A stretch of DNA of 28,536 nt from a virus: positions 1 to 28,536 of IMG/VR virus record IMGVR_UViG_3300017598_000334; one strand, given 5' to 3'. Positions 3,481 to 24,262 of the stretch are shown here, piece after piece; the first letter of the stretch is position 1, and every line of letters starts with the position of its first letter. The notes beneath the pieces are model-generated. The model saw only the letters and a list, made by a program, of their open reading frames with translations. It made no database searches and was not told the DNA's origin. Position numbers and translations under genes: made by a program.

Positions 3481-4964
3481 TGAGTTCATCATACACAACT
3501 ATATTACGACTGGAAAAACAAGGGTCAGGTGAAAACGCCTCTACTTGGGGTGAAAAATTAAATGACTCAGTAATTGATTTAGTTGATTCGGCTGTTGGCG
3601 CAGTAACTTCAATTGACCTTTCTGGAGTTGGAACAGCCTTCACAGTATCTGCAGCAGACGGTGTTTCTGATCAAGCGCGTAGTGCTGTACTTTATTTTCA
3701 TGGCTCTGTCTCAACTGCAGTATCTATAACGGTTCCCGCTGTTCAGAAAACCTACATCTTTGATAATCAGACATCAGGTGGTTTCGATTTAAAATTAAAA
3801 CCTGCAGGCGGTACTGAAGGCACCATACCTAACGGTCAAACTACCCTAATTTATACTGATGGTACAAATGTTAAAAATCTTTTTGAAGACATAACTGGCG
3901 TAACTGGAGTCTCTGTAGGGACTTTGACAGCAGGTACAGTTAAAATTTCAACTTGTCTTAGCGCCACCAATATCGTAGGTGCCACTGCCTCATTTACCAC
4001 TAAGGTGTCTGCTACTGCTTTAGAAGTTTCAGGCGTCACCTCTTTCACAGGGGATATACAAGGAACTACAGGAACTTTTTCTGGTGCAGTATCTTGTTCA
4101 ACTATTTCGGGTGATGGCTCTGGCTTAACAGGCTTATCTGCAGTGCCCAATAATTATTTAACTGGAATGATCCTATCTAATGATTCCGATTCAGATCATG
4201 ATATAAGTATCAAAGCAGGACTTGCAAAGAATTCTACAAATGCTAGTGATCTTGAATTAACTTCAGCCATAGTCAAACAGATTGATGCCACTTGGGCAGA
4301 TGGTACGGGAGCTGGTGGTCTAGCAGGAGGTGTAAGCCTTTCAGCTAACACTTGGTATCACTTACATGCAATTGAAGTTACAGCAGGAACAGATGCTGGC
4401 TTCGATACTTCTCCAGTAGCAGCCAACCTAATTGCAAATAATGATGCTTCTGCTTACCGTAGAATCGGCTCTGTATACACTGACGACAGTAGCAATATAA
4501 GAGCTTTCCACCAACGGGGTGATAAGTTTTTATATGACACTCCTATCCTATCTTACACATCCGTAAATATTGCAGCGACTGCTAGAACTACAATCGCTTT
4601 GCAAACACCTGTTTCAGTATCTACTGAAGCTATATTTTCCCATTATTTATTTAGATACTTTACACAAGCTCTCTATACATATCGTCCTTTATCAATGACT
4701 GATGTTTCAGTTGTAGATATTACTGGTAACGAAACTGCACCTACGTCCGCTGCTATGGGAACTTTAGGAATGACTGGCGCTGGATATGTTGAATTTGGTG
4801 ATAATGCCAGGTTAAGAGAATTTTTATGGGAAGCAACTTGTGAGACTGATCTTAAGGGTCAAATTGGGGTTCGTACTCAGGTGACTGGGGGTTCAGCAGA
4901 CGGCGGTCCTTTGAATTCTTTCCAAACTACAGGCTGGTATGACAGCAGAGGCAAGGATGGCTGA
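3480..4964 (+). CDS. Tail fibre protein
   Basis: A 494-residue protein. The N-terminus, SSYTTILRLEKQGSGENASTWGEKLND, is the conserved virion-attachment start of fibres in many marine podoviruses as I remember them. Residues about 30-220 are beta-rich, with triplet-like Thr/Ser/Gly repeats and a SGDGSGLTGLSAVPNN segment typical of fibre shafts. The C-terminal half, with EFLWEATCETDLKGQIG near its end, is probably the host-binding part. Fibres bind the cell surface and decide host range. The start is TAATG-coupled to the previous gene with only a weak ribosome binding site. The stop is TGATG-coupled to the next gene. Confidence 0.85.
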   Translation: MSSSYTTILRLEKQGSGENASTWGEKLNDSVIDLVDSAVGAVTSIDLSGVGTAFTVSAADGVSDQARSAVLYFHGSVSTAVSITVPAVQKTYIFDNQTSGGFDLKLKPAGGTEGTIPNGQTTLIYTDGTNVKNLFEDITGVTGVSVGTLTAGTVKISTCLSATNIVGATASFTTKVSATALEVSGVTSFTGDIQGTTGTFSGAVSCSTISGDGSGLTGLSAVPNNYLTGMILSNDSDSDHDISIKAGLAKNSTNASDLELTSAIVKQIDATWADGTGAGGLAGGVSLSANTWYHLHAIEVTAGTDAGFDTSPVAANLIANNDASAYRRIGSVYTDDSSNIRAFHQRGDKFLYDTPILSYTSVNIAATARTTIALQTPVSVSTEAIFSHYLFRYFTQALYTYRPLSMTDVSVVDITGNETAPTSAAMGTLGMTGAGYVEFGDNARLREFLWEATCETDLKGQIGVRTQVTGGSADGGPLNSFQTTGWYDSRGKDG

Positions 4965-6886: not shown

Positions 6887-7161
6887 TTTTTCCCCGTTTA
6901 ACCTTAGCTTCGGAAAACAACATCTTTCGATGGGCAGCGCAGCTAGTCAATGTGCTGGAAAGAAATCGGGACGAAATATTCTCTTCCTTCACAAGACAAG
7001 ACTCAGGCGGAACCATAAGACTTAATGGGCGAGTGCAAGTCAATCAGGATGTTACGGACCCCGATGTTAGTACAGATGATAGAGTAGGCGAAATAAGATA
7101 TAATGCGGCGACAAGTAAATTTCAAGGTTTCAATGGTTCTGGTTGGCAGGACTTTCACTGA
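6883..7161 (+). CDS. Small tail protein with fibre-tip-like GEIRYN motif
   Basis: A 92-residue protein. The N-terminal half is helical (IFRWAAQLVNVLERNRDEIF). The C-terminal end, GEIRYNAATSKFQGFNGSGWQDF, fits the short beta motif G-x-IRYN-x-x-x-x-x-FQG(Y/F)NG-x-x-W that closes many phage fibre and spike domains. It is therefore probably a small fibre, collar or attachment component that works with the tail proteins around it. The start overlaps the previous stop as ATGA. The stop overlaps the next start as TGATG. Confidence 0.75.
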   Translation: MIFPRLTLASENNIFRWAAQLVNVLERNRDEIFSSFTRQDSGGTIRLNGRVQVNQDVTDPDVSTDDRVGEIRYNAATSKFQGFNGSGWQDFH

Positions 7162-7580: not shown

Positions 7581-8656
7581 TGCCTTTTCCCTTAATTCCT
7601 GTACTCATAGGTGCTGGCATAGGTGCAATGGCTGGCGGTATGTCTGGTGAAGACGGCTGGGATTGGAAACGAGCTTTCGGTGGTGCTTTGCTTGGCGGTG
7701 CTACAGGTGGTGTAGGCGCTGGCGCTATGGCCCCTGCCGCTGCTATGTCTGCTGGCCCACTTGCAGCCAGTACAGCAGGAGCTTCTAGCTTAGGGGCTGG
7801 CGCAGCTACTGGTCTAGGTGCTTCTAATGTTGCAGGTATTGGTGCGGCTCTTGGTCCTGCGGGTCTTGGTGGGACAGGGGCTGGTGCTTTAGGTGCTGGT
7901 ACCGCTAGTACTGCAATACCTGCAAGTGCATCTGGACTTAGTTATGGAATGTCTCCTGGCGCTATGGGTGGTAAATTAACAGCAGCATCTCAGACAGGTG
8001 GAATAGGAGGGACTGTTCCAGTTTCTTATGGTAAATATGGGCCTACGACAAAAGCAGGTTTTGCTCAAAACGAAGCCCTGATGCAACAAGCGAAAGGAGC
8101 AGGATTTGATTACGGTAAGCTAGGGGATACCATCCAGAGCTTTGGCGGGGATTCACAAGAAGAACAAATACCAGATAGTTTTCCTGACCCCGCTGCTTTG
8201 CAAGTCGGTCAAGGGGGTGGAAGTGATTCGGTTACAACCGATTTGGAAAGAGAAAGACAAGCAATACAAGCTAGTATTCCTAGTTCAGGTGCGACAGGTT
8301 TGAGTGGTGTAGAACGAGCAGCCAGGGGCGGTATAGCCACCAAATTTGGTATGATGAAAACTCCTTCAGGTTCCCTTACAGGAGGAGAAATAGTTGGACC
8401 TGGGACAGGAACTAGTGATACTATTCGTTCCGCAATTTATCCTGATTTGGCTAGTAAACTTGGTGCTAGCAGTATGCAAGCTCTTCAAGGTGGAGGACAC
8501 CAAGTACAAAAAGCAGCCTTATCAGATGGTGAATTTGTTTTAACTGCAAAAGCTGTTGAAGGACTTGGTAAAAATGCAAATGCCCCGCCAGGACAAGAAC
8601 GTGAATATGGTAGTAAACTTTTGGATCAGGCAATGAACCAATGGCAGAGGATATAA
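7580..8656 (+). CDS. Gly/Ala-rich virion protein with 'GTGTSD...LSDGEFV' C-terminus
   Basis: A 358-residue protein. The first about 140 residues are almost entirely Gly, Ala, Ser and small hydrophobics, with GxxxG-like glycine zippers, which could insert in or cross a membrane. The C-terminal third has ARGGIATKFGMM, then GPGTGTSDTIRSAIYP, then ALSDGEFVLTAKAVEGLG at about residue 313. The GTG-x-SD and LSDGE(F/Y)V pair is one I remember from marine phage tail and internal proteins of unknown function. Its position just before the giant internal proteins suggests a part in DNA ejection, but this is inference. The gene overlaps the next by 16 bases. Confidence 0.75.
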   Translation: MPFPLIPVLIGAGIGAMAGGMSGEDGWDWKRAFGGALLGGATGGVGAGAMAPAAAMSAGPLAASTAGASSLGAGAATGLGASNVAGIGAALGPAGLGGTGAGALGAGTASTAIPASASGLSYGMSPGAMGGKLTAASQTGGIGGTVPVSYGKYGPTTKAGFAQNEALMQQAKGAGFDYGKLGDTIQSFGGDSQEEQIPDSFPDPAALQVGQGGGSDSVTTDLERERQAIQASIPSSGATGLSGVERAARGGIATKFGMMKTPSGSLTGGEIVGPGTGTSDTIRSAIYPDLASKLGASSMQALQGGGHQVQKAALSDGEFVLTAKAVEGLGKNANAPPGQEREYGSKLLDQAMNQWQRI

Positions 8657-9084
8657 CAGAAGCAACTTTAAATGACATATACCCACAGTACAAATTATTA
8701 AGAGAGGCTAAAAAAGGATTTGCTTACCCAACCAAAGAACACAACGCAGAAAAAGCTATAGATCAACTTAGTGTTTGTGCTTCTCAGCAGCTTAATTTTA
8801 TAGCTAAAAAAGACGGGCCGATAGTGGGGTGCATGGTTTTATGTTATGATCAACTGTGGTTTTCGGATGAAACCTTTTTAGTAGATTTAGCCTATTATGT
8901 TGATGATAAATATAGAAAAAGTTCTTTGGGAGTAAGGCTATTAAATACAGCTAAAAAAAGGGCGCGGGAATTAGGATTACCCCTACATATGAGTGTAACA
9001 TATGGCACTGATGTAGAGCGAAAAGAAAAATTCTTTATACGCCAAGGTTTCGAAAAAATAGGCGGTAATTATTTATTGAGGTAA
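8641..9084 (+). CDS. GNAT-family N-acetyltransferase
   Basis: A 147-residue single-domain protein of normal GNAT length. Motif A, which binds the acetyl-CoA pyrophosphate, is visible around residues 96-118 as a beta strand (LVDLAYYVDDKYR) followed by RKSSLGVRLLNTAKKRAREL. The C-terminal KFFIRQGFEKIG is the usual last GNAT strand-helix. The substrate cannot be told from sequence. It starts inside the last 16 bases of the preceding structural gene with no clear ribosome binding site, so its translation is probably coupled. A lone acetyltransferase inside a virion operon could modify a virion or host protein. Confidence 0.85.
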   Translation: MAEDITEATLNDIYPQYKLLREAKKGFAYPTKEHNAEKAIDQLSVCASQQLNFIAKKDGPIVGCMVLCYDQLWFSDETFLVDLAYYVDDKYRKSSLGVRLLNTAKKRARELGLPLHMSVTYGTDVERKEKFFIRQGFEKIGGNYLLR

Positions 9085-9087
9085 AGA

Positions 9088-12000
9088 ATGGGAAAGAGTA
9101 GTGGAGGTGGTGGAGGTGCCACTGGGTCACAAACAATCATACAAGATATAGCGGAGCCATTTAAAGGTTTTGCTACAAGGTCTTTACAAAGAGCAGAGGA
9201 TTTACAAGGTCTTCCGAGCATTCCATTCACAGGAATAGCTACGGCACCTCCTTCTCCCGATGAACTTGTAGCAGCCCAAGCTTTACGCAATCGTTTTATG
9301 GAAGCGCAACCCCTCACTGAGGACGCTATAGCTCTTCAGGCTACTGCTGCTGACCCTATCACTGCCGCCTCAATACAAGCTCGACAAAATCCCTTTGAAG
9401 CACAAATAGCACAAGAAGCCTACCGTCGCCTGGATGAACGCACTCAACGTGATCTACAAAATCAAAGAGCGCGTGAAGCAGGTGCTGGAGGTACAGACCG
9501 TGGAAGAGGCGCTATAGAAGACCACCTCATACGACAAGCGCAACAAGATCAAGAACGTCAAATAGGTCTTGAAGCAGGTCAACGAGCTTTTACAAATGCT
9601 TCTAGTTTAGCTCTAGCTGACAGACAAGCAAGGGCTGACACAGCGGCGGGAATAAATGCACGACTAGCGGAAAGACAATCGTTGGGGCGGCGTGACATAG
9701 ATGATCTTCTCAGGGTAGGAGCACAATTCCGAGAGAAATTTGTGCAGCCTGAACTAAATCTTGAACGACAACAGTTCGGTGAATTTCGTGGTCCCGCTTC
9801 AGTACAAAATCCGTTTGGTTTTGAACAATTCTTTTCGGGTATTCAATCAGTGGCACCTATGCCAACAACCACAACCACTCAAAATTTTGCACAAACCCCA
9901 TCAGGTTTATCTCAAGCTGTTCCAGCTATAGGCGGGGCAATTTCAGCGGGAAATCAACTTGGATTTTTTAATGAGGGCGGCATCGCCAATTTTCATCAAG
10001 GCGGTCTAGCAGAACATCAAAGAGCAGACCACTCACATCCAGAACATGACCCAGGAGTAGTCGATCAAGTTATACGGGTATTGCAAGAACAAGGACATCT
10101 TGTTAAAGGCCCTGAGGGTCGTATGGAATTTGGCATCAGGATGTTAAATGATCCCAGTTTCAAGCCACTATATGAGCAAGCGATGGCAGGTGTTGTCGAA
10201 AGTTCAGGATATCTCCCACCAATGCTTGATACAGAAACAGTGGTAGAAGAAGCTAGAGTAGAACCAAGACCACAATCTCGTGAAACAGGTCGTTCAGATT
10301 TTGACGCTATGGTTGATACTCATGGTCAATTAGCAAAAGGTTTTACTGATGAACGACAAAGAGTAGGTGGCATCGAAGCGGCGGCTCTTGCAAGGGCTGA
10401 AGAAGAAATGAGACATAGAGCTATAAGTCCACAAACTTTAAGGGAAGCTGGTCAAAGACGTTTTGATGAAGCTCGTATGGATCGACAAGATTGGCTGGGA
10501 GGAGAAAGAGAACGAAGAAAAACTCTTAGTGACCCACAAGCTTCTCAGTGGAGCGAAAGCATGGGCATTGAAGAAGAAGAAGAAGAACCAAACTTTATTC
10601 CTGAAGACCAAAAAGCACGACTTGAAGCAGAGGAGAATTTAAAATTTCATCATGACGTAGAAACTTTCAGAAATACTCAACCTGATCAAGCTCGTATAAG
10701 AAATAAATTTACAGCACCTTATATGGCTCAATCGTTGGCAAATTTAGGTGAAGGAGAAGAGTTTACAGAATCAACTTCTGAGCCAGATATGGATGAAGGC
10801 TCTGATGTAGGTATGGCTCCTTATGTAGAAGAAGAAGCCCCTGCAGAATATTGGGCTGAATCAATGGGAGGTTTACCTGACCGTATGGCAGAAGCGGTAG
10901 AAGGTCGCGCAGTTTCTCCTGAAGCTCCTGAACCTGAAAGAAAATATACTGACTCAGAAATTACGGCGATGATGGAATTTTCCATGACGGGCAGAGGTCG
11001 TGAAAGATTGCCAAAAGAAATGTTCGGCTTAGATACCCTGGAAGTTCACGATGCTCTTAAACCTATAAGAGAGAGGGCGCGTAAGGCTTCTGCACCCAGG
11101 AGAGCACAAGAACGTAGAGACAGAATTGCAAACCGTAGAGGCTTCCGTCGTAATAGTGGTGGTATTAGAGATTCTGATACACCGTCTTATGACATTACTT
11201 TTGATGATATAAAAGAAATTTTTAATTTTAAAGATGGTGGTCTTACTTCTTTGAATCAAGGTGGGATCGCTAGGTTTGATGAAGGTAAAACTGTAAGACA
11301 AGACGTAAGAGAAATGGAAAGACAACAAGAAGTTATAGATGAAATGGAAAAAGCATTACAAAGATACAATCCTCGCCAACAGCGGGCTTGGTGGAAAGGA
11401 TTTAAAGAAGAGAAAGATGTTGCTCTAGGTCGGATTCCTGATTATCCTGCAATAGCTATGGGCGATGAAGAAATAATTGAAATAGCTAATATTAAAAAAG
11501 CCAAAGAAACAAAGCCAAAGGTTAAAGATACAGCCAAAGCCAAAGCTGAAGCTGAAGCTAAAGCCAAAGCTGACGAACCTAAGAAAGAACCCAGAAAAAA
11601 TCAGATTGAATTAATGATGGAAGATTACAGGGAATCTTTAAACGCACCAACTAAGAAAGGATATCCTGATCGAATTCCTCTTAGTGATAAGCAAAGAAAA
11701 GGTGCGGCGATTCAGGCTTTCGCAAATGCTCTTATGGCTGTCAAGTCCGATAAATTTGGTGGCACAGACTTCTCAGGGATGGGGGCTGCTGCTGCTCAAT
11801 CCGCACAAAAAACTTTAGCTGGTTATGAGGCGGCAAGAAAAGAAGAGATTGCCAGACGAACTGCTCAACGAGCCGCGATGTTGGAAGGCGCAGAGAAATT
11901 TTCAAAAATCTATAAGAACATGGGCGAAACAGAAAAAGCTATGGCCGATGCTGCTGTTGCTCAAGCAAAAGCCGACTACCCAGGATTGGAAATTATTAAG

Positions 12001-12183
12001 GCAGTTGCTCCCGCATTAGCAATTCAGCTAGCGCAGGGATTCATTACCCAAGCAAGATATGATGCGGCATTACAAGGAGCCGTTGAATCCTTCCTACGGC
12101 AGCAAGGAGGTAATACTGGGTTAAACAGAGATGAATTAGACACATCCTATGCTGAAACAGCATCAGAAACACAGCCTGGATGA
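9088..12183 (+). CDS. Large internal virion-type protein, 1031 residues
   Basis: The protein begins with a Gly/Ser run and then long charged helical stretches rich in Arg, Gln, Glu and Ala. It carries two double-GG motifs: EGGIANFHQGGLAEH near residues 293-310 and DGGLTSLNQGGIARFDEG near 714-733. A low-complexity AKAEAEAKAKADEP stretch lies near residue 815. The last about 200 residues are predicted helical (GMGAAAAQSAQKTLAGYEAA onwards). GAGG lies six bases before its ATG. The stop is ATGA-coupled to the giant next gene. Size, helical character and position fit a podovirus internal or ejection protein. No enzyme motif was found, and the family is not one I can name. Confidence 0.7.
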   Translation: MGKSSGGGGGATGSQTIIQDIAEPFKGFATRSLQRAEDLQGLPSIPFTGIATAPPSPDELVAAQALRNRFMEAQPLTEDAIALQATAADPITAASIQARQNPFEAQIAQEAYRRLDERTQRDLQNQRAREAGAGGTDRGRGAIEDHLIRQAQQDQERQIGLEAGQRAFTNASSLALADRQARADTAAGINARLAERQSLGRRDIDDLLRVGAQFREKFVQPELNLERQQFGEFRGPASVQNPFGFEQFFSGIQSVAPMPTTTTTQNFAQTPSGLSQAVPAIGGAISAGNQLGFFNEGGIANFHQGGLAEHQRADHSHPEHDPGVVDQVIRVLQEQGHLVKGPEGRMEFGIRMLNDPSFKPLYEQAMAGVVESSGYLPPMLDTETVVEEARVEPRPQSRETGRSDFDAMVDTHGQLAKGFTDERQRVGGIEAAALARAEEEMRHRAISPQTLREAGQRRFDEARMDRQDWLGGERERRKTLSDPQASQWSESMGIEEEEEEPNFIPEDQKARLEAEENLKFHHDVETFRNTQPDQARIRNKFTAPYMAQSLANLGEGEEFTESTSEPDMDEGSDVGMAPYVEEEAPAEYWAESMGGLPDRMAEAVEGRAVSPEAPEPERKYTDSEITAMMEFSMTGRGRERLPKEMFGLDTLEVHDALKPIRERARKASAPRRAQERRDRIANRRGFRRNSGGIRDSDTPSYDITFDDIKEIFNFKDGGLTSLNQGGIARFDEGKTVRQDVREMERQQEVIDEMEKALQRYNPRQQRAWWKGFKEEKDVALGRIPDYPAIAMGDEEIIEIANIKKAKETKPKVKDTAKAKAEAEAKAKADEPKKEPRKNQIELMMEDYRESLNAPTKKGYPDRIPLSDKQRKGAAIQAFANALMAVKSDKFGGTDFSGMGAAAAQSAQKTLAGYEAARKEEIARRTAQRAAMLEGAEKFSKIYKNMGETEKAMADAAVAQAKADYPGLEIIKAVAPALAIQLAQGFITQARYDAALQGAVESFLRQQGGNTGLNRDELDTSYAETASETQPG

Positions 12184-15100
12184 GCGAGCAATTACCTCCA
12201 TCAGAATTCCTTGCTGGAATAAGAGAAAAAAAGCCTGACCTACTCGGAAATTTTACTGATCCTCAAACCGCCGAGTTCCTTTGGCAACGCAATGTTGTAA
12301 GTAAAGGAGAAGAGGAACGCTATGACAAAGACCTTTATTTCCAAGCTCTTGGAACCTACCGCAATGACATAGACTTTTGGGATAGCGTAGGCAGAGGTGC
12401 ATCACGAGGTTGGTATGCAGTTTCGGATGCTCTTGACCTAGCTGATCAAGCAATTAAGGATGCAACAGGTGGCTTCCTCGATCCAATAATGTTTACTGAT
12501 GAAGAGTATGCTGAAAGAAGAGCAGCCAGAGATTTAGGCCGAAAAAAGAATCCTTATTCATACGAAGACCTCAATAAACTTATGGCTATTACAGCCGATG
12601 ATTCCAGCTTTGATGATTGGATGTCAAACATCTGGGATATCTCTCTTGTGGGAGGTCTTCTTTCAGAGAGTGTTGTTCAGTTTGCACCAGCCCTAGCAGC
12701 CACAGCAGCCATAGGTATGACAGGAGGTGCAGCCGCGCCCGTTCTTGCACCCCTAGCTACATTCCTTATCCAGAGCGGAATAGTAGGAAGTAGTGCTTTC
12801 CATGAGTATCTCAAAGAAGAAGAAGGTGTTGTAACAAAAGAAGATTACCTCAAAGCTTTCAGTGATCCAGATGTTATGAACAGGGCTGTCGAACATGGAG
12901 CCAAGTATGGTGTACCTGTAGCTGCCCTGGACGCTTTCAGTCTGGGTATCGCAGGCAAGCTGCCTCAAATAGGTATGGCTGCCCGACGAGCCGCTGGCAT
13001 GGCAACCAAGACAGACAACATTGCTGCCATAGGTAAGGCCGCTACGAATGCTGCTAGAGGCCGAAAACAAGCACAGAAATTTGCTCAACGGTGGTTGCCA
13101 GAAGTAGTTGCCCAAGGAGGTCTTGGTGCTTCAGGTGAAATTCTGGGTAGCCTGTGGGCCACAGGAAAAGTAAATCAGGGTGAAGCTTTCCTTGAAGCTA
13201 TCCTTGAACCTATGTCCTTACCCCTTGAGTTAGCAGTTAAGTCACCCAAGCTCACTGAAAAGTATTGGACTGCCAGAACGAGAAAAAAGATTCTCAATCT
13301 ATCTGAAGAAGAAGTTAAAAGGCAGGCAAGAAGAAGAGGCATAAACACTGAAGGGAAATCTGGTGATGAAATAAGGGCATCCCTGATGTCTATCTTGAAA
13401 GAGTCTCAAGATTACAAAGATCGCAACACAAAGCAAGACCAAAGCAATAAAGAAGAATACCTAGAAGAGGTTGATTTTGATGTACATGAAGCTGTATTTC
13501 CTCGCATCCCTATGGAACAAAAACAAATAGACAGTTGGATCAGAAGGGATCAGAAAGCTACAGATAAACAGGCAAAAGAAATAAAATTACCGCCTGTAAA
13601 AAACCGTACCTTAAATGCTGCCTTACTAGCCCCAGGTCAAGCCAAAACTCTAGTAGATTTAGGCTACATAAAAGAGCTAAAAGAAAAAGGTAAATACGTT
13701 ATAACCCGCAAAGGCTTGAGGGCGATGAAATCTGAGTTACCTACCACAGGTGGGGCAGGAGAAACAGGAGAGCCTGTAGCCGAAGGGGAGAAACTTCGAC
13801 AAGCCGCTGCCGCCGCGCCCAAGGTAGCTGCCGTGGTGCCGAAGGAAACTGAGACAGATGAAACAGTAGAAGAGACAACAACTGAGACCGTAGAAACACC
13901 TGAAGGTGCTGCAGTCGAGGGTATAGATACAACTGAAGAGATTGTTGAAGACGAGGCACCCCAGGGTCAAGCGCCCACAACGGAAACACTCGATTTTTAC
14001 GGGTGGAGAAGGTTCCTGAAAAATCGCACTAGCGCCCTGGAACTAGCTATTGAGACAAGTACTGCAGAAAATATGGAAAAAGATTTAACGTCTGAGATAG
14101 CTAAAGGTATGACGCTGATTGATGAGAATACCCCAGCAGCCGCAAAAGTGAAGGTTCAAAGACAATTTCTTAATACTATCCTTACTAGACTACAGACTAC
14201 AAAGGCAGGCAAACCCCGAAAGAGAAAGACTGCTGCGCGGCAAAAGGCGATAGATATTGTTACTAGACAAATAAAGGGTGCCGAAAAAATAATGGAGTCT
14301 GACCGCGCTCGCGTTGTGGTTGAGGATGGCAAGCAGAATGCAACCACAAAAGTATTGGATGCGAAAGAGCAAGCGAAAAAGGTAAAGAAAAAATCGAAAG
14401 CGCGGACCAAGAAAAAGACTAAGGAAAAACCTAAAGCCATACCTGTGGCAGCACCACCAACTCAAGAACAGGATGCGCCTATTGACTTAGAGGTTGAAGA
14501 GGGTTTTGAGGATGCCCTGCAAATAAACGAAGACGATGACATACAAGCTTTGATTGATGCTATGGAGTTAGATGAAGAACAGATAGATATTCTCGTAGCT
14601 GAACAGGTGTTGCCCCAAGAGGTATATGAGCGTGTGTACAATGAGGCGGAAGAGCGTGGGCAAGATGGTGAGGCTGCCGTTGTTCAATACACAAAATATA
14701 AAATCAGAACCACAAAAAATAAATTTGAGCGCGGACCAACCTTTGATCTTAATTTTAAAGTTGTAGAATCTCAGTATGATCGCTCCAAAGAAATTGAGCA
14801 GCAAAATCTAAATCAGAATTTTATAGCTGGGGGTTTGGATTGGTTGAAAAGTTTGATTCCAAATGGGTTACTTCGCCAAGGCCAAAGAGGTCCAGGTGCT
14901 AAAGGCATGTTGGGTAACCAGGGCCAAGTTAAAGATGGAGAGGAGGCAACAGCACGTTTAAATGTTTCTACTTACCAAGGAGTAAGCAACTATAAAAACC
15001 CAGAGAAACCTTTACGGTCAACAGAAGTGGAGCATAAATTTTGGGCGGATTTAATAAACGATAGAAATGCTTATCGAGAATTCTTAGAGCTAGTTCCTTC

Positions 15101-18100
15101 ATTTAGATATGATCCGCTAGATAGAATTGTTTCTATTTCTCTTGAAGATATAACTAATTTAGATAGGTGGTTGGATGATCAAGCCGTATTGGATGGAGCC
15201 AGTTCAATACCTCCCCGTCTGCGAAACCAAGGAACCAAAAGCAGTTTAAAATATTTTAAATCTCTCCATAGTAATGTTCCTCGATTTGATAGAAACTCTA
15301 AACCCATAGGTGTCATCACAGTTAAAACCCAAAAAGGGTCAGGACCATTTGTAAATGCTTTCCATGACAGTCATGTAGTTCTTGAAAATGTTACTTTTGA
15401 GGTTAATCAATCACAAGCACAGGTGACAGCTAAAGAAGGCGGCGCTAAAAATGTTCACGCTGAAGTCAAAGGAACGTATCGTCCAAACATAGAAGCCTTT
15501 ACTACAGACCTTGACGCAGATGGTAATCTACAAGGTGACGTTGTACCTGTAGGATATAACCCTAAAATCGCCACCTTATTTATCGATTTGCGAAATGGAC
15601 GGCCATTAAAATCAGCCCCTCTTGTTACAGTTGTGGGTGATAGAGCCTACGCAAAAGGTATAACAGAGGAGAACTATTTAACTAGGGAAGAACTACCAAA
15701 TAACTTTACCCCGAATAAGCTTGCTGATCTTGGTATTGTATTAACAACTCCTGAGGCGATGCAAGCAAGTGAGATAGCGAATGATATCGAGAGGGAAAAT
15801 ACTCTTGATAATACTAAGGGTACCTTGCCACCTGAAAACCAGCGTGAATTAATTCAGTGGATACAAGAACGTGTAGGTCCAAATATTGCTGTAGCCTTTG
15901 AGCGGGTTAAGCGCATGACCGAAACTGTTAAAGCGTTTAAAAATCTGCCTTCCAATATTGAGGTGCAAGGGTACGCTAATCCTATAGACAAAATTATTGT
16001 GCTTGCCCTTGATAGAGAGTACTCCAAGGAAACTGCAGGTGAAGAAGCTTTTCATATAGCTGCCCGTTTACTTTATACCGAAGAGGAATTGGCAGTACTT
16101 TCGGGCTATGATTGGGTAGATATTGCTAACGCCAACGGCATAGATGTTTCTCAATATTCTGAGGACATGCAAGAGTGGGAAGCTTTAGCTAAGGTGGCAG
16201 CTAAATTTTTAACTGGTGAAAAGGTTGTTAATATTGGCCCCAATAACAACACCCTACTGGGACGACTTAAAACATTTTTGAATCAGCTTGCAGATTATGT
16301 GCGCGGCAGAGGATGGAAGAAACATTTCCCTTCACCACAGGATATGTTTATTTCTTTTAATGCTGGAGAGCTGGTTGATCGTGGGCATAACCCTTATCCC
16401 TTGGGGCCACAATCAGAAAAATTTGACTTGATGGCAGAGAAGGTGCTTGATGATTCCATAAATAATTATGAGGAAAAACAGGCTGAAGTTGATAAGAGTA
16501 TTCCTGGTGCCAAGGATAGAGGTCTTTTAACTCCTGTCGCTCAAGCGTGGGCTTATTTCCAAGAAGCTTTTAATCATCCTAATTTTTATGCTGCCAAGAA
16601 TTTCCTTTTCAGGCCCATATATAAAATTATGGAAGAGATGCGGGAATACCAAGACACTCTACTTATGGAAGGGTTAGAGGCTTTAAGGGGTTATGCTCTG
16701 TCCACCAAGGCCACGCAAAAAGAGACAGATCAATTTGTATCTCTTATGGATTTTTTAACTACCAGGAATAACTGGATTCCAGAAGTAACGACGAATGAAG
16801 ATGGTAGTATGACTTTTACTATGCCTACCCTAGATCAAGTCAAGGGTCAGGACATAGAACAAAAACTTAAGGTCTTGTATCCTGAGGGTATAAATGGTGT
16901 TGAGGTAAAGTTATCTCAAGTTTTGGATTCAGGTGATATAATCCCAAGGCAATACACCTTAAGTGGGCAGATAGATAAGAATGGTATATCTCCTGCACAG
17001 GCTTTCACATCTTATTACCAAGGGGCTGAATACCAGAAAAATTTATTAATACAGGCTATTATGTATAAGCTTGCTAATATGCCTAAAGACGCTACCATTG
17101 AGGATTTACAAAATCGTATTAGGTATTTAACGGCTACAGTAGCTGAGAGTTACCAGGAGGAAACTAAAGAAGGCGAGCCTGTGGTTCCTGAGGGTACACC
17201 AGAACTTATCTTGGAAAGAGATTTGGCTGAGAAAGCTCTTGAATATATTGAAGACCTTAATTCTAAGCCGTATTGGATTCCAAGAGTTCGTCAAGGAGAC
17301 CGCTCAATAGTAGTGAAGACCATAAAGGATGGTAAACCTAAGACTGTTCAGCATTTTGAGGTGTATGATATCAAGAGGTTTGAGTCTCGCAAAGCTTTCG
17401 ATAAGATGATCGCTAAAAGAAAAGCAGAACTGAAGGAACAATTTCCACAGCATAATGTAGAAGATCAAGAGTTTAGTGTTTCAGGTTTAATTGATAAGGC
17501 TACTAGTTCTGGTGAAAGCTTTACTGTGATTTCAGGTATGTCTTTGATTGAAGCTTTGTTAGCTGAATTAAGTCATCCAGAATCAGACAACTCAAAAATT
17601 GACAAGGTTATAGCCTTAATAAAAAGTCAGACTGAAGGTGAAAAACTATCAGGTGTTGGAGATGTTAGACAGGCACAAAATATAACTGGGCATTGGAGAC
17701 CTGATCTTGACGGCTATGTAAATGCGGCTACCAACAGTAATCTACATACGATGACATACCAGTTAGCTAAAGTTATTTACAAGCCTATGATAGATAAAGA
17801 ACATGCTGGGATGTTAGAGTTGCAGGAGCAAGCTACCCTTGACGAACAACCTGTTCGGGCTGCTGCTATTGGAAGAACACACAGGTACACTAAAAAGTAT
17901 TTAGACTTTGTAAACAATCCTAAAACTCAAGGGGCTGTAATAAGAAACATAGTATTCCACACAGCCCTTGGTGGTAGAGTTTCTAGTGCTACCCTAAATT
18001 TGATGCAGTTGCCACAAGCTCTGCTGCCTTTCCTCTATTCAGTGAATCCAGATAAGTTTCTTCTTGATAGCCCCTATGCCGTAGCAAAGAATACTGCCAT

Positions 18101-19616
18101 CATGGGTAAAGCTTTTAAAGATGCTATGAGACTGTCTGTTAAAGGCGGGTGGGGAAAACTTCAGACAGCCTACAGCATGGAGTTAGAAGGTGATGCGCCC
18201 TCTTACTTGGATGCAGATGAGTGGCAGATGCTGCGTGTCTTATTTGGCCGTGGTATCTTGAGTCCTGTAAACCTTGAAGACCTTACAGATAAAGTTAAAT
18301 ACCAATCTCTAGTTAGGGATGGAACTAAGGTTGGCTTAGGTTTAAAAGGTTTAGATAATGTTGCTGACCTTTCTTCTTGGATGTTTGGTTCAACAGAATT
18401 TTTGAATAGAGCTACCACCGCCTTGGCCATGTATCGTATCGCCAAGGAAAACCAGACAGTTCTAAACAGGATGGATAAGATAAGAAATGGGAGTCACTTT
18501 CGAGATTCCCATGTGGGTAGTATGAATTTAACTGATGACCCAGAAGGCTGGGCTAATGCTGCTCATATAGCTGTAGCTGAAACCCAATTCATGATGGGCA
18601 AATTTAATAGGCCGCAACTCTTCTATGCAGGTGGACCCCTGGGGCCAATTATCTCACAGTTTATGTCTTTCCCTTTCCAGTATCTGGAGATGATGATTAA
18701 AAATATTAGGCGTATGGCTACACCAGGGGAAAGAGCTATAGGTGCCAGAATGCTAGGCTTAATGTTGGTTGCTATGGTGGGTATGGCTGGCATGTTTGGC
18801 ATACCTTTCATGGAAAACTTACGGCGGTTTATTAGTTCCATTAGCGATACAGACCTGGAACGCGAAGCAAGAATTGCCTTCTACCCTGTATTGGGAAAGT
18901 CTTTAACTAATGTGTTAGTTGGCGGTAGCATATTCGAGTACCTGGGAATAGAAGCTAAGAATCGTGTTGGCGTAGGTACTATGGTTGATTCAGGTATATT
19001 CAGAGGAGACATAGGTTTTCTTTTCGGTCCCTTGGGAGGTGTTATTGAAACTGCCTGGAATGATGTGGGTGATGGCATAGACGAAGGCAACATAGGAAAG
19101 ATTGCCAAGGGGTTAATACCTTTCGGTTTTGTTAGAGATGTAATAGTTGTTAATAATGCTTTTGAGGAAGGTTACACCACACGTTCAGGCACCACCCTTA
19201 TAGCTCCCCAAGACATCTTACCTACAGATTTCTTTATTACTTTCCTGGGATTTAATCCTGCTAACAGAGCTTTGGAAAGAGATAAGCAAGCGTACTCTAG
19301 GATGTTGAGAACTGTGGGTCAAAGAAGAAGAAATATTGTGCTGAAGCGTATGACTAGGCTGCAACGCAAAGCAATGGATACTTATGATCAGGATGAGAAA
19401 GAAGAATATATGGCTGAGTTCAGGGATGAGTTGCGTACTTGGAATAGAAAGGCTGCCCAAAAAGGTTGGCCCCCTATCACTTCTCAACTTATAACTAATA
19501 GGCTTCTTGGCAATCTGAATCCAGGTCATATGCTTTTGAAAAGAGCCAGCAAAATTAACAAGCGAGAGCTAAGAGATCAGCTAGATTTATTGGATTTATT
19601 GAAACCTGCAGCATAA
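12180..19616 (+). CDS. Giant polyvalent virion protein (2478 residues), ejection-type, with degenerate peptidase-like site
   Basis: Regions in order: a helical N-terminus with a hydrophobic stretch near 160-205 (ALAATAAIGMTGGAAAPVLA); a low-complexity Glu/Thr/Lys region near 520-770; near 1050-1170 a beta region (PFVNAFHDSHVVLENVTFEV, then RPLKSAPLVTVVGDRAYAKG) like domains of large polyvalent phage proteins; then IIVLALDREYSKETAGEEAF followed by HIAARLLYTEEELAVL. In related proteins the last site reads HEAxH; here residue 1288 is Glu where the first His is expected. The C-terminal part (FNRPQLFYAGGPLGPIISQF near 2141-2160, then a hydrophobic segment) resembles the LPD38-type domain. Such proteins are packed in the head and ejected with DNA. 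Domain names are from memory. It is ATGA-coupled to the upstream gene. Confidence 0.8.
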   Translation: MSEQLPPSEFLAGIREKKPDLLGNFTDPQTAEFLWQRNVVSKGEEERYDKDLYFQALGTYRNDIDFWDSVGRGASRGWYAVSDALDLADQAIKDATGGFLDPIMFTDEEYAERRAARDLGRKKNPYSYEDLNKLMAITADDSSFDDWMSNIWDISLVGGLLSESVVQFAPALAATAAIGMTGGAAAPVLAPLATFLIQSGIVGSSAFHEYLKEEEGVVTKEDYLKAFSDPDVMNRAVEHGAKYGVPVAALDAFSLGIAGKLPQIGMAARRAAGMATKTDNIAAIGKAATNAARGRKQAQKFAQRWLPEVVAQGGLGASGEILGSLWATGKVNQGEAFLEAILEPMSLPLELAVKSPKLTEKYWTARTRKKILNLSEEEVKRQARRRGINTEGKSGDEIRASLMSILKESQDYKDRNTKQDQSNKEEYLEEVDFDVHEAVFPRIPMEQKQIDSWIRRDQKATDKQAKEIKLPPVKNRTLNAALLAPGQAKTLVDLGYIKELKEKGKYVITRKGLRAMKSELPTTGGAGETGEPVAEGEKLRQAAAAAPKVAAVVPKETETDETVEETTTETVETPEGAAVEGIDTTEEIVEDEAPQGQAPTTETLDFYGWRRFLKNRTSALELAIETSTAENMEKDLTSEIAKGMTLIDENTPAAAKVKVQRQFLNTILTRLQTTKAGKPRKRKTAARQKAIDIVTRQIKGAEKIMESDRARVVVEDGKQNATTKVLDAKEQAKKVKKKSKARTKKKTKEKPKAIPVAAPPTQEQDAPIDLEVEEGFEDALQINEDDDIQALIDAMELDEEQIDILVAEQVLPQEVYERVYNEAEERGQDGEAAVVQYTKYKIRTTKNKFERGPTFDLNFKVVESQYDRSKEIEQQNLNQNFIAGGLDWLKSLIPNGLLRQGQRGPGAKGMLGNQGQVKDGEEATARLNVSTYQGVSNYKNPEKPLRSTEVEHKFWADLINDRNAYREFLELVPSFRYDPLDRIVSISLEDITNLDRWLDDQAVLDGASSIPPRLRNQGTKSSLKYFKSLHSNVPRFDRNSKPIGVITVKTQKGSGPFVNAFHDSHVVLENVTFEVNQSQAQVTAKEGGAKNVHAEVKGTYRPNIEAFTTDLDADGNLQGDVVPVGYNPKIATLFIDLRNGRPLKSAPLVTVVGDRAYAKGITEENYLTREELPNNFTPNKLADLGIVLTTPEAMQASEIANDIERENTLDNTKGTLPPENQRELIQWIQERVGPNIAVAFERVKRMTETVKAFKNLPSNIEVQGYANPIDKIIVLALDREYSKETAGEEAFHIAARLLYTEEELAVLSGYDWVDIANANGIDVSQYSEDMQEWEALAKVAAKFLTGEKVVNIGPNNNTLLGRLKTFLNQLADYVRGRGWKKHFPSPQDMFISFNAGELVDRGHNPYPLGPQSEKFDLMAEKVLDDSINNYEEKQAEVDKSIPGAKDRGLLTPVAQAWAYFQEAFNHPNFYAAKNFLFRPIYKIMEEMREYQDTLLMEGLEALRGYALSTKATQKETDQFVSLMDFLTTRNNWIPEVTTNEDGSMTFTMPTLDQVKGQDIEQKLKVLYPEGINGVEVKLSQVLDSGDIIPRQYTLSGQIDKNGISPAQAFTSYYQGAEYQKNLLIQAIMYKLANMPKDATIEDLQNRIRYLTATVAESYQEETKEGEPVVPEGTPELILERDLAEKALEYIEDLNSKPYWIPRVRQGDRSIVVKTIKDGKPKTVQHFEVYDIKRFESRKAFDKMIAKRKAELKEQFPQHNVEDQEFSVSGLIDKATSSGESFTVISGMSLIEALLAELSHPESDNSKIDKVIALIKSQTEGEKLSGVGDVRQAQNITGHWRPDLDGYVNAATNSNLHTMTYQLAKVIYKPMIDKEHAGMLELQEQATLDEQPVRAAAIGRTHRYTKKYLDFVNNPKTQGAVIRNIVFHTALGGRVSSATLNLMQLPQALLPFLYSVNPDKFLLDSPYAVAKNTAIMGKAFKDAMRLSVKGGWGKLQTAYSMELEGDAPSYLDADEWQMLRVLFGRGILSPVNLEDLTDKVKYQSLVRDGTKVGLGLKGLDNVADLSSWMFGSTEFLNRATTALAMYRIAKENQTVLNRMDKIRNGSHFRDSHVGSMNLTDDPEGWANAAHIAVAETQFMMGKFNRPQLFYAGGPLGPIISQFMSFPFQYLEMMIKNIRRMATPGERAIGARMLGLMLVAMVGMAGMFGIPFMENLRRFISSISDTDLEREARIAFYPVLGKSLTNVLVGGSIFEYLGIEAKNRVGVGTMVDSGIFRGDIGFLFGPLGGVIETAWNDVGDGIDEGNIGKIAKGLIPFGFVRDVIVVNNAFEEGYTTRSGTTLIAPQDILPTDFFITFLGFNPANRALERDKQAYSRMLRTVGQRRRNIVLKRMTRLQRKAMDTYDQDEKEEYMAEFRDELRTWNRKAAQKGWPPITSQLITNRLLGNLNPGHMLLKRASKINKRELRDQLDLLDLLKPAA

Positions 19617-19624
19617 ATAATTAG

Positions 19625-19653
19625 TTGACACCTAGGGAATACATAGGTATTTT
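19625..19653 (+). promoter_or_regulatory. Sigma70-like promoter before the glycosylation/lysis genes
   Basis: TTGACA at 19625-19630 is a perfect -35 box. After exactly 17 bases comes TATTTT at 19648-19653, a 4-of-6 match to the -10 box. Between them an inverted repeat, ACCTA (19630-19634) and TAGGT (19644-19648), overlaps both boxes and could be an operator or a weak hairpin. This is the only real gap in the + strand genes and marks the change from virion to glycosylation and lysis functions. Confidence 0.45.
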
Positions 19654-19686
19654 AAACTTATTTAAGTAATTCTTTAGGAGCAACGG

Positions 19687-20397
19687 GTGAAGAAGTTATT
19701 GGTTTGTGTGGGCTATGACTCTCGGGAGGACATAGCTTACCAAGTGTGTCGTCATTCCATCTATAGGCGAAGCACTCTTCCCATAGAGATATACCCACTT
19801 AAACACAAAGAACTTAGGGACCGTGGAATTTTCTGGCGTCCTTGGCTAACTGCTGGTTCAGGGCAGACTGTCGATTGCATAGATGGCAGACCTTTCTCTA
19901 CTGCATTTTCGCACACTCGTTTCCTGACGCCTCACATAGCCAAAGAGAAGGGATACCCCTGGGCTTTGTTTGTTGATTGCGATTTTCTTTTTCAAGAGGA
20001 TGTCGCTAACTTATTTAATCTTGTTGATGATAACTACTCTGTGATGTGCAGGAAGTTTCAGTACCACATAGCTCATAAGGTAAAGATGGATGGTATGCGG
20101 CAATCAAGCTACGACAAAAAGCTGTGGTCTAGTCTTTGCTTGTGGAATACTGATAAGCATTTTCCTACAGTGGAGCAAGTTAATTCTAGGGATGGCGCAT
20201 GGTTGCATCAATACCAATGGTTGTCTGAAGATCAAATTGGTGAGGTTCCTGAAGGATGGAACTGGATATCAGGGACTGATGAGGTTCCTAAAGCAATACA
20301 CTATACCGAAGGTGGTCCTTGGTTTCCTCAGTATGAGGGTTGTGAGTATGGGCATCTTTGGAAGAGTGAACTAAATCACATGGAGAATAGTAAATGA
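19687..20397 (+). CDS. Glycosyltransferase, DxD type (GT-A fold)
   Basis: A 236-residue protein starting at GTG. AGGAG lies six bases upstream at 19676-19680, and no better ATG exists. It begins KKLLVCVGYDSREDIAYQVC, the usual beta-strand start of GT8-like phage glycosyltransferases. A DxD-type metal and sugar-nucleotide motif is at residues 97-99 (ALFVDCDFLF). Downstream are WNTDKHFP and aromatic-rich segments. It should transfer a sugar from a nucleotide donor; the acceptor is unknown and could be host surface glycan, virion protein or DNA. It is ATGA-coupled to the next gene, a larger glycosylation-type fusion, so the two probably act together. Confidence 0.8.
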   Translation: MKKLLVCVGYDSREDIAYQVCRHSIYRRSTLPIEIYPLKHKELRDRGIFWRPWLTAGSGQTVDCIDGRPFSTAFSHTRFLTPHIAKEKGYPWALFVDCDFLFQEDVANLFNLVDDNYSVMCRKFQYHIAHKVKMDGMRQSSYDKKLWSSLCLWNTDKHFPTVEQVNSRDGAWLHQYQWLSEDQIGEVPEGWNWISGTDEVPKAIHYTEGGPWFPQYEGCEYGHLWKSELNHMENSK

Positions 20398-22571
20398 TTT
20401 TAGTTACCAGCTTTCACGCCAAGTCGTGGGACACCTATGCAAAAAGGTTTATGGAAAGCTTCCAAAAACTATGGCCTAAAAGCGTGAAGTTGTATGCGTT
20501 TTATCATGACGGCGATATCCCTAGGGACGCACCTTCAGGTAGTAATATCTCGTATAGAAAACTTAATCACCCAGAGATGCTTAACTTTAAAGAAAGATTT
20601 AAAGATAAGAATGGTGGCTCTCCCTACAATTATAGGCTTGATGCTATTAAGTTTTGTCATAAGGTATTTGCCTTGACCGAGATGGCGGAAGAACTAAGAA
20701 CCAATAAGTCTAAACAACAATGGCTTATGTGGTTGGATGCTGACACAGTAACCAAAAAGAAACTCCCTCTTAAGGAGATAAAGAGTTGGCTTCAGGAGGA
20801 CTGCGATATAGTTTACCTAGGACGTACAGCCATAGATTATTGTGAGTCTAGCTTTCTAGGTTTTAATATGTCTAATGTGCCAGCGCATGTTTTCCTTGAG
20901 GATTTCAGGGGCTTGTATCTTTCGGGCGAATTGTTTGGTTATCGTGAATGGCATGACGGCTTTGCTTTTGAACGCCTCCTGAGGATGCATAGAGTACATG
21001 GCCTTAGAGCACATGACTTAACACCTGACTGCAAAGACCTTGAAGCTTTTAACACTAGTCCTCTAGCAAAATATCTATATCATTTTAAGGGACCGACTAA
21101 GGAAAGCCATGCTCCAGTAAGATATAATCATTTGGTTGAGATGGTTGGTTTTTATAAGCCTCAAACGCTACTTGAGACAGGCACATGGAATGGTGATAGG
21201 GCTGTGCAACTTTGTTTGGCAGCGTTGCAGGCTAATACAGGGGATATACGCTATGTGGGTTATGATCTTTTCGAAGATGGTAACAAGGAACTTGATCAGC
21301 TAGAATTTAATGCCAAGCCCAATACAGCTATGGAGAAGGTTGCCAAAAAGCTTGACCGCCTTAAGGAGTTACACCCAAGGTTTGATTACTCTTTGCACAA
21401 GGGTGACACACGGGAAATAATGAAGCACCACAGGGTAGACTTTGCTTATCTCGATGGTGGTCATTCCATAGATACGGCAGCTAATGACTTCAAGAATGTT
21501 AAGGGGTCTAAGGTTGTGGTGATGGATGATTACTTCGTTAAGGATGAGGCTGGGCAAATTCCCCCTGATAAGTGGCAGGGTACCAACAAGGTTTATGATA
21601 CATATGAAGGAAGAAAGTTTCTTATTAATTCTCCTGACCCCGTAAATGTGGGAGGTAAAATTTCGCTGGCTGTCTTTATTGAAGAGGGAGAAGACCCACC
21701 TAATATGGATAGGACAGCAGTGCCTATCGTTGTTAATCCAGTAGATTGTGTAGAAAAAGATTTTCTTTACGATAATATTAAAGAGAACCTGAACATCATA
21801 CCTAATTATATTTCTCATAAATTTGAGTTTCATGAGAAGAAATTAATTATAGTGTCAGGCGGCCCCAGCATTAAAAATAATTTTAATGATATTCGAAGGG
21901 ATCAGATAGCTGGTGCTGATGTTATGTGCGTGAAACATTCTTATCCCATGTTATTGGGGGCTGGTATAAACCCTTGGGGATGCATTATACTTGATCCACG
22001 ATCTTTAGACGGCGAAAGCACACATGGAATTTTAAGACGTTCACTGTTTAAAACTAAGTCAGACACCGTATTCTTTGTAGCCTCGATGACTAATCCTGAA
22101 GTTACTCAGTTTCTTTTGGATAGGGGGGATACTATTGTAGGTTGGCATGCATTTTCTCAAGCCAGCAGCAAGTTGCCAGAACTAAAAAATAAGATGTTGG
22201 TAACTGGAGGAACTTGTGCGGCTATGAGGGCAGTAGGCTTAGGTCATACCCTGGGATACAGGAGTTTTGACTTATATGGTTTCGATTCTTGTATTGAAGA
22301 ACCGTCTGTCGAAGAAAAAGAATTATTGGACGAGGATACAGACAAGCCTAAATATATTGAAGTAGGTATAGGCGGTAGAAAGTTTTGGACTACAGGAGAA
22401 TTGTTGGCACAAGCGCAAGATTTTGAGAGACTTGTTGGGCGAGGTGATGTAGATATGAAATTAAATGTTTTTGGTGGGGGTATGGTCCCAGCGTTGTGGG
22501 AAAATATGCAGGCTCAAAGGGAGCTACCGCCAAATTTTTTTAGCTTCTTGGAAACTTGTAAAGAGAGTTAG
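20394..22571 (+). CDS. Three-domain fusion: glycosyltransferase, SAM methyltransferase, DUF115/MptE-like
   Basis: A 725-residue protein. Domain 1 (about 1-235) is a glycosyltransferase with WLMWLDADTVT, the DxD at 115-117. Domain 2 (about 240-435) is a class I methyltransferase: LLETGTWNGDRAV at 259-271 is motif I, and DFAYLDGGHSIDTAANDF at 349-366 is the DGGH loop of CmcI-like O-methyltransferases. Domain 3 (about 480-640) has KLIIVSGGPSIKNN, GADVMCVKH and TGGTCAAMRAVGLGHTLGY, then DLYGFDS. This is the DUF115/MptE-like pattern known in Maf-type flagellin glycosylation proteins. The order suggests adding, methylating and building a sugar chain. Domain calls are by motif; the acceptor is not known. 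Confidence 0.8.
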   Translation: MILVTSFHAKSWDTYAKRFMESFQKLWPKSVKLYAFYHDGDIPRDAPSGSNISYRKLNHPEMLNFKERFKDKNGGSPYNYRLDAIKFCHKVFALTEMAEELRTNKSKQQWLMWLDADTVTKKKLPLKEIKSWLQEDCDIVYLGRTAIDYCESSFLGFNMSNVPAHVFLEDFRGLYLSGELFGYREWHDGFAFERLLRMHRVHGLRAHDLTPDCKDLEAFNTSPLAKYLYHFKGPTKESHAPVRYNHLVEMVGFYKPQTLLETGTWNGDRAVQLCLAALQANTGDIRYVGYDLFEDGNKELDQLEFNAKPNTAMEKVAKKLDRLKELHPRFDYSLHKGDTREIMKHHRVDFAYLDGGHSIDTAANDFKNVKGSKVVVMDDYFVKDEAGQIPPDKWQGTNKVYDTYEGRKFLINSPDPVNVGGKISLAVFIEEGEDPPNMDRTAVPIVVNPVDCVEKDFLYDNIKENLNIIPNYISHKFEFHEKKLIIVSGGPSIKNNFNDIRRDQIAGADVMCVKHSYPMLLGAGINPWGCIILDPRSLDGESTHGILRRSLFKTKSDTVFFVASMTNPEVTQFLLDRGDTIVGWHAFSQASSKLPELKNKMLVTGGTCAAMRAVGLGHTLGYRSFDLYGFDSCIEEPSVEEKELLDEDTDKPKYIEVGIGGRKFWTTGELLAQAQDFERLVGRGDVDMKLNVFGGGMVPALWENMQAQRELPPNFFSFLETCKES

Positions 22572-23440: not shown

Positions 23441-24262
23441 ATGCGTAAGTTGTTGGCCGCTTTCTCGATAATATTTTTCTTATCAGGTGCGGCATATGCT
23501 GATAATTATTCAGAGGCTATGCCAGTCAAGCAACACCTGGAGATGTTATATCCAACTGTGTTGGTGGCTGTCGGTGGCGGTAGTGGTTCAGGAACTGTTA
23601 TCTTTTCTGAAAGGCGTCAAGGAGAATATACCTCTTTGGTTCTTACCAATTGGCACGTTATTCAGAGCGCTGTTCAAGTGTCTAAAGAGTGGGATTCTCA
23701 AAAGAAAGAAAACATAGAGAAGGAAACCAGACGCCCAGTCAAGATAGAAATTTTTGAGTACAACAATTATAGTACGAGTATAGGTACTACAGGAAGAACC
23801 GCACAGATCGTAGCCTATGATAAGAAGAGGGACTTAGCTCTCCTGAGGATTGATGATCGTGAGCGTCCTCTGGAGCATGTAGCAACACTCTATCCTGAGG
23901 GTGAGGACGATGGTCCCTGGATATTCCAGAAGGCGTGGGCAGTTGGGGCAGGACTTGGCAAGCCACCGTTTCCCACACAAGGATTGCTATCAGGATTTGC
24001 GAAAGACAATTATGGTAATGATCTTATATTGGGAAGCGCCCCCATAATTTTTGGGAATTCAGGTGGCTCTGGTTATGTTCTTTCTCCACGAGGAACCTAC
24101 GAATTGATTGGAGTTCCAAGTATGGTATCGGCTTATGGCTGGGGGTCAGTTGTGTCACATATGGGCTGGTGGCGTCCGATCTCGGAGATAAGAGTGTTCT
24201 TGAGAGACAATAAGCTGGGGTATATATTGGGTGATAAAGAAGAAGAAGAAATTATAGAATGA
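23441..24262 (+). CDS. Secreted trypsin-like (S1) serine protease
   Basis: A 273-residue protein with a clear signal peptide (MRKLLAAFSIIFFLSGAAYA, cut after residue 20). The catalytic triad is visible: His72 in LTNWHVI, Asp131 in RDLALLRI, and Ser207 in IIFGNSGGSG. The fold is HtrA/DegP-like without a PDZ domain. The start has AGGAG upstream, 11 bases after the spanin stop. The gene lies directly after the spanin pair, where an endolysin might be expected. It could act on periplasmic or envelope proteins during lysis, or on virion proteins. The substrate is unknown. The family call is firm; the role is inference. Confidence 0.85.
   Translation: MRKLLAAFSIIFFLSGAAYADNYSEAMPVKQHLEMLYPTVLVAVGGGSGSGTVIFSERRQGEYTSLVLTNWHVIQSAVQVSKEWDSQKKENIEKETRRPVKIEIFEYNNYSTSIGTTGRTAQIVAYDKKRDLALLRIDDRERPLEHVATLYPEGEDDGPWIFQKAWAVGAGLGKPPFPTQGLLSGFAKDNYGNDLILGSAPIIFGNSGGSGYVLSPRGTYELIGVPSMVSAYGWGSVVSHMGWWRPISEIRVFLRDNKLGYILGDKEEEEIIE

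Follow-up and report, generated by a model that had tools for sequence, protein, structure and literature searches.

Two adjacent genes of an uncultivated water phage appear to encode a route, common but so far undescribed, by which phage particles or the host surface are decorated with a modified sugar. The phage is known from a 28,536-base virus record in IMG/VR (hereafter the window, meaning the whole stretch of DNA analysed). Both open reading frames, which an initial annotation had placed at positions 19687-22571, were confirmed; the stop codon of the first and the start codon of the second overlap in the sequence ATGA, and the pair forms an operon (Table 1). No membrane-like segment was detected in either protein. 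The operon is tentatively read here as a soluble, cytoplasmic glycan assembly line, for which a phage structural protein would be the most likely acceptor. No description of the three-domain architecture of gene 2 or of the gene pair was found in a limited search of the open-access literature, and the same search returned nothing on systems with DUF115/MptE-like proteins in phages, in agreement with the earlier view that this fusion may belong to an undescribed system.

Table 1. Positions in the window of the two genes, the domains of gene 2 and the candidate expression signals.
Feature	Position	Strand	Description
Sigma-70-type promoter candidate TTGACA-17-TATTTT	19625-19653	+	In the 70-base gap 5' of gene 1
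Ribosome-binding site AGGAG	19676-19680	+	6 nt 5' of the gene 1 GTG (from the sequence)
Gene 1	19687-20397	+	GTG start; 236 aa; soluble GT8-like glycosyltransferase
Gene 2	20394-22571	+	ATG start; 725 aa; three-domain protein
Domain 1, GT-A glycosyltransferase	20394-21101 (residues 1-236)	+	DAD 20736-20744; REWHD 20943-20957
Domain 2, SAM-dependent O-methyltransferase	21102-21701 (residues 237-436)	+	Motif I 21174-21194; DGGHS 21453-21467; DDY 21525-21533
Domain 3, MptE-like/DUF115 (MAF_flag10)	21732-22568 (residues 447-725)	+	SGGPS 21855-21869; LDPR 21990-22001; GGTC 22206-22217

In an alignment of 7 relatives, the GGAG of the ribosome-binding site is invariant. The promoter candidate is the top-scoring site on the plus strand of the region; by eye, GTTGAC is invariant in the same number of aligned relatives and a TAT-hexamer follows 17 nt on in each. 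Because both elements are kept even though the spacers differ, the pair likely has a predicted promoter of its own in the window lineage. A stem-loop 5' of gene 1 was not significant (z -1.6).

The assignment of gene 1 is based on weak but repeated sequence evidence, which points to a GT8-like glycosyltransferase. Its product matches phrog_28018 (E 1e-60) and contains a DCD motif at residues 97-99 as well as the motif HYTEGGPWF, and D97, D99, H205 and G209-F213 are invariant in 21 relatives. The Pfam family Glyco_transf_8 is matched by 16 of these 21 relatives (best E 2.7e-7), while the window protein itself reaches 16.9 bits against the GT8 model cut-off of 24.3 bits. Matches in the PDB are weak (WbbM and a GT8 enzyme, E 0.0035). 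More than 595 relatives of gene 1 were detected in IMG/VR, mostly at approximately 45% identity.

The initial annotation had proposed that gene 2 carries a glycosyltransferase, a methyltransferase and a DUF115 domain in this order, and AlphaFold and fold comparison bear this out for each domain, as Pfam does for the last two. A first model built from 8 close sequences (pLDDT 63) was replaced by one built from 34 diverse relatives, with a mean pLDDT of 86 and a pTM of 0.43, so that the fold of each domain can be trusted, but not the way in which the domains are positioned relative to one another. Domain 1 gives only sub-threshold hits to Glycos_transf_2, and no Pfam family scores above its cut-off. 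Its modelled fold resembles Bogt6a (4cjb; Z 14.6, 188 aligned residues, 3.4 A), bovine alpha-1,3-GalT (1g8o; Z 14.3) and the first domain of PBCV-1 A064R (2p72; Z 14.0, 173 aligned residues, 2.9 A). These matches support a predicted GT-A fold with a DxD motif, GT6/A064R-D1-like by fold alone.

For domain 2, the Pfam family Methyltransf_24 is matched at residues 260-370 (33.0 bits; cut-off 26.3), and the best fold matches are COMT (2zth; Z 15.7) and the sugar O-methyltransferase CalS11 (5hoq; Z 14.9). Among the 34 relatives, methyltransferase models of the Methyltransf_24/COMT/TylF-like kind were matched in 33 and 16 cases, whereas CmcI-like models were matched weakly in 5; RMNT_CmcI gave a best E of 0.028 in those five and no match in the window protein. 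A SAM-dependent methyltransferase is thus upheld by fold and motif, and the CmcI-like type proposed earlier gives way to a COMT/TylF-type enzyme.

Domain 3 is a member of PF01973 (MptE-like), which is matched at residues 459-635 of gene 2 with 66.4 bits (E 3.4e-18; cut-off 34.6) and by all 34 relatives. A link of this domain to flagellin-glycosylating proteins had been suggested from the sequence, and it is corroborated by two results: the NCBIfam model FlagModPseD matches 28 of 29 relatives (best E 3.5e-12, far under its full-length cut-off), and the top structural match of domains 2 and 3 taken together is Maf of Magnetospirillum (5mu5; Z 20.9 over residues 238-704, 335 residues, rmsd 14.7). 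Given that the relative placement of the domains is not fixed in the model, the Maf match reflects domain order and not geometry. A PDB sequence search with family profiles gave weak matches to an O-methyltransferase (E 0.01) and, via SGPSI-like and LGF.xLFGxD motifs, to 5mu5 (E 1.8). The domain also resembles the M. jannaschii HPPK, or MptE (8sd5; Z 15.6, 197 aligned residues), after which the Pfam family is named, and this raises the question of whether the fusion activates a substrate as a pyrophosphokinase-like enzyme instead of transferring it. This seems very unlikely, since Maf is the top match, NCBIfam matches PseD and not MptE, and the domain occurs in a setting of glycan enzymes in which no pterin gene was seen.

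It has been reported that Maf is a three-domain protein whose central PF01973 domain resembles the sialyltransferase Cst-II; its N-terminal domain has a degenerate Rossmann fold in which the methyltransferase motifs are weak (PMC11339370). In the cytoplasm, the PF01973 domain adds nonulosonic acids to flagellin, and Kdo can be used as well (PMC11339370; PMC7591256). Gene 2 is similar to Maf/PseD in being soluble and in having a Rossmann methyltransferase-like domain followed by a PF01973 (MAF_flag10) domain. On the other hand, it has an additional N-terminal GT-A domain and a methyltransferase domain with intact catalytic motifs, and it has no room for the C-terminal helical (chaperone-like) domain of Maf, as the chain ends approximately 30 residues past the core aligned with HPPK (447-694). 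Moreover, no flagellin or NulO genes lie near the phage pair. The full-length Maf/PseD model NF050051 gives the window protein 23.1 bits (23-26 bits) against a cut-off of 670, which is a match to the domain only; with this score, and with the C-terminal domain missing, gene 2 is not classed as a Maf. Judging from one structural alignment, the succession of methyltransferase and DUF115 domains may correspond to that of Maf, with the difference that the methyltransferase has retained its motifs. It is conceivable, if somewhat unlikely, that the pair represents a widespread phage form of cytoplasmic Maf-type protein O-glycosylation, which would yield a methylated and possibly sialic-acid-like virion glycan from host donors.

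The catalytic motifs of gene 2 are highly conserved. DAD is kept in 33 of 34 diverse relatives, the SAM motif E-[TV]-GTWNG in all 34 and DGGHS in 33, and LDPR, STHG and GGTC of domain 3 are each present in all 34. Between the window and a near relative, dN/dS was estimated to be ~0.06 for the glycosyltransferase, ~0.08 for the methyltransferase and ~0.14 for the DUF115 domain of gene 2, and ~0.09 for gene 1, indicating that the coding sequences of the pair are under purifying selection. Distance matrices of genes 1 and 2 are correlated (r 0.85, n 48), as are those of the three domains of gene 2 (r 0.82-0.87), whereas gene 2 distances show r 0.37 against ribonucleotide reductase (n 40) and r 0.74 against TerS (n 32); all these values are descriptive and uncorrected for shared ancestry. 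This pattern fits a module passed on as one unit, apparently without domain swapping. An artefact of fusion or misassembly was also considered and was ruled out by the occurrence of the same open reading frame in loci of many different samples at 40-93% identity.

When IMG/VR was searched with close relatives, at least 547 stretches proved to be related, with the fusion in all of the best 80, and all 91 loci in which the three domains occur (some duplicates included) carry them in a single open reading frame. The fusion is not confined to the window but is a widespread module of uncultivated phages. The proposed coupling to a second glycosyltransferase proved to be general: gene 1 lies directly upstream of gene 2 in 79 of 79 informative loci among 84 non-redundant ones, as the sequence of the other 5 begins within gene 2 or no more than 66 bases from it. 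In 34 loci, the distance from the gene 1 stop to the gene 2 start ranges from -22 to +24 nt, and the two genes often overlap. In contrast to this abundance in uncultivated phages, 50,697 phage records contained no full-length relative of gene 2; an isolate-phage collection yielded separate domain 1 homologues only (two records) and no match to domain 3, and a standalone DUF115 gene was present in no phage isolate record searched. The sequence family is already deposited, as the UniProt entry A0A6J7X5Q0 (714 aa, uncultured Caudovirales phage) is a full-length structural match with 32% identity (E 2.6e-63) and belongs to the same family; its sole annotation, 'Methyltransferase domain containing protein', assigns no function. 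A search of 84,980 cellular genomes detected gene 2 in full length just once, on a contig of a Sneathiella MAG that also has DNA polymerase A, ribonucleotide reductase and phage-like genes. In that copy (locus L168, positions 7983-10328), NTN replaces DAD and GGGNS/DN replace the acidic residues of the methyltransferase, and the motifs of domain 3 are intact.

Unfused relatives were mainly observed in T4-like phages. According to the sequences read, many relatives of gene 1 occur in T4-like glycosyltransferase clusters between UvsX-like/UvsY-like recombination genes and a UvsW-like helicase, and in 57 of 78 T4-like loci a homologue of domain 1 is a separate gene beside the gene 1 homologue. 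Some of these clusters contain a TylF-type methyltransferase. In pelagic T4-like phages (Pelagibacter phage Mosig EXVC030M and IMG/VR loci), the homologues of gene 1 and domain 1 likewise adjoin and are accompanied by FkbM/TylF methyltransferases; they differ from the pair in being separate genes of a larger cluster, with a DUF115 gene in one lineage only. This MptE-like gene, which was traced as a standalone phage gene to that lineage alone, scores just under the Pfam cut-off and directly precedes a CTP_transf_3-RraA fusion gene, i.e., a CMP-sugar-type cytidylyltransferase with an RraA-like domain (L066, positions 1259-2584; L178, positions 5779-7083). Gene adjacency in this single lineage lends modest support to a CMP-sugar as the donor of the DUF115 domain. 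Nonulosonic acid as the donor, which had been suggested earlier, was not supported: NeuB was found in 0 of 40 and CMP-sugar synthetase (CTP_transf_3) in 0 of 24 pair-carrying records, all of which may be fragments.

The glycosyltransferases of phage T4 glycosylate modified DNA bases. A comparable role for the pair, i.e., glycosylation and methylation of modified phage DNA bases against host restriction, could be considered because ribonucleotide reductase and MazG genes are nearby and homologues of gene 1 lie close to recombination genes in T4-like phages. However, no thymidylate-synthase-type enzyme was present in 24 pair-carrying records (fragments), the glycosyltransferase folds resemble oligosaccharide-extending enzymes, and DNA glucosyltransferases are not among the structural matches listed, although that comparison is not a test. 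Among the readings discussed here, DNA modification appears to be the least probable, with hardly any weight given to it.

For the glycan assembly line, we infer which reactions take place, in what order, from which donors and on which acceptor, as follows. Gene 1 (GT8-like) and domain 1 (GT-A, GT6/A064R-like) would each use a nucleotide-sugar donor to add a sugar, domain 2 would O-methylate a sugar, and domain 3, as a Maf-like DUF115 transferase, would either add an acidic sugar (nonulosonate- or Kdo-type, CMP-activated) or link the glycan to its acceptor. The donors would be taken from the host, and the acceptor would be a phage structural protein from the same cytoplasm, comparable to the capsid glycan of PBCV-1 for A064R and to flagellin for Maf. 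A064R is a soluble viral GT-GT-MT fusion that builds the end of the capsid N-glycan (PMC9614988). Similar to gene 2, it is virus-encoded and soluble, consists of one chain of three transferase domains of ~200 aa including GT-A and methyltransferase domains, and is partnered by a separate gene, A061L. It differs from gene 2 (GT-MT-DUF115) in its GT-GT-MT order without DUF115, its eukaryotic host and its N-linked capsid glycan (PMC9614988), and its resemblance to domain 1 is a fold match only, with no sequence homology shown. Any likeness in mode of action between gene 2 and Maf or A064R would be one of analogy at most.

A virion protein is favoured as the acceptor because Maf glycosylates flagellin in the cytoplasm and A064R builds a virus capsid glycan; no virion gene was found as a constant neighbour of the pair, and the preceding genes vary among loci. 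Glycosyltransferases of the LPS core are likewise soluble, and the solubility of the pair thus does not favour a protein over LPS. A possible alternative, which follows closely, is that the pair modifies a host surface glycan (LPS core, O-chain or capsule) at the inner membrane face and thereby excludes rival phages or limits the re-adsorption of progeny. A survey of pelagimyophages proposed such a role for GT8-type phage enzymes in GT8-rich clusters (PMC7029224), and this role is itself a proposal. Several observations agree with it: the T4-like clusters contain GT8 and GT25 families and an ADP-heptose-type nucleotidyltransferase together with the gene 1 homologues, one domain 3 homologue weakly matches the Kdo transferase WaaZ (E 0.009), and a candidate sigma-70-like promoter of its own implies that the pair need not be co-expressed with virion genes. 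However, no flippase, polymerase, Gtr-type or membrane component lies beside the pair, and the methyltransferase-DUF115 half is closest to a protein glycosyltransferase.

Phage glycan machinery is usually interpreted as O-antigen or DNA modification. If glycosylation of a phage structural protein is true, the pair would provide a counterpart among prokaryotic viruses to the capsid glycosylation of chloroviruses, and the role of DUF115 in phages would become testable. This compact and conserved two-gene module is present in many uncultivated aquatic phages but absent from the isolate records searched, so that culture-based studies could not have met it. As two soluble proteins carry all of the proposed chemistry, expressing them would be enough for a test, which would show whether phages captured Maf-like protein glycosylation. 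In addition, the unfused T4-like parts provide annotations for phrog_28018 as a GT8-like enzyme and for the domain 1 family as GT-A.

The pair is known from at least two genomic settings. In the commoner one, which adjoins a strand switch, ribonucleotide reductase, Hsp20 or 2OG-Fe oxygenase genes precede the pair, and a holin gene and the terminase small subunit follow. An Hsp20-family small heat shock gene (phrog_432; L115, positions 3770-4216, and relatives) directly precedes the pair in 19 loci. In the window-type setting, the late genes encode proteins of 640, 1031 and 2478 aa in this order, followed by genes 1 and 2, a small holin-like gene and a trypsin-like protease; MazG, an iron-sulphur assembly protein and ribonucleotide reductase are encoded past the protease on the opposite strand. 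The 2478-aa open reading frame (positions 12180-19616) matches hardly any family (only phrog_586, over 1045-1158), its product is likely a putative internal or ejected virion protein, and homologous frames also precede the pair in locus L102. The protease (positions 23441-24262, plus strand; Trypsin_2 E 1e-11) is a serine protease with a hydrophobic signal-like N-terminus; it lies in the lysis region between the holin-like gene and a 156-aa gene and is kept in ~10 relative loci. The 640-aa protein resembles phage stabilization/tail proteins, with the nearest isolates, DSL-LC04 and Pelagibacter phages HTVC027P and HTVC023P, at ~30% identity. In HTVC027P, a related cultured pelagiphage, a different gene set (gp80-gp84; L170, positions 17468-22085), comprising an annotated glycosyltransferase and several hypothetical genes, lies between the homologue of the 640-aa protein and a large structural protein, near the equivalent place to the window pair.
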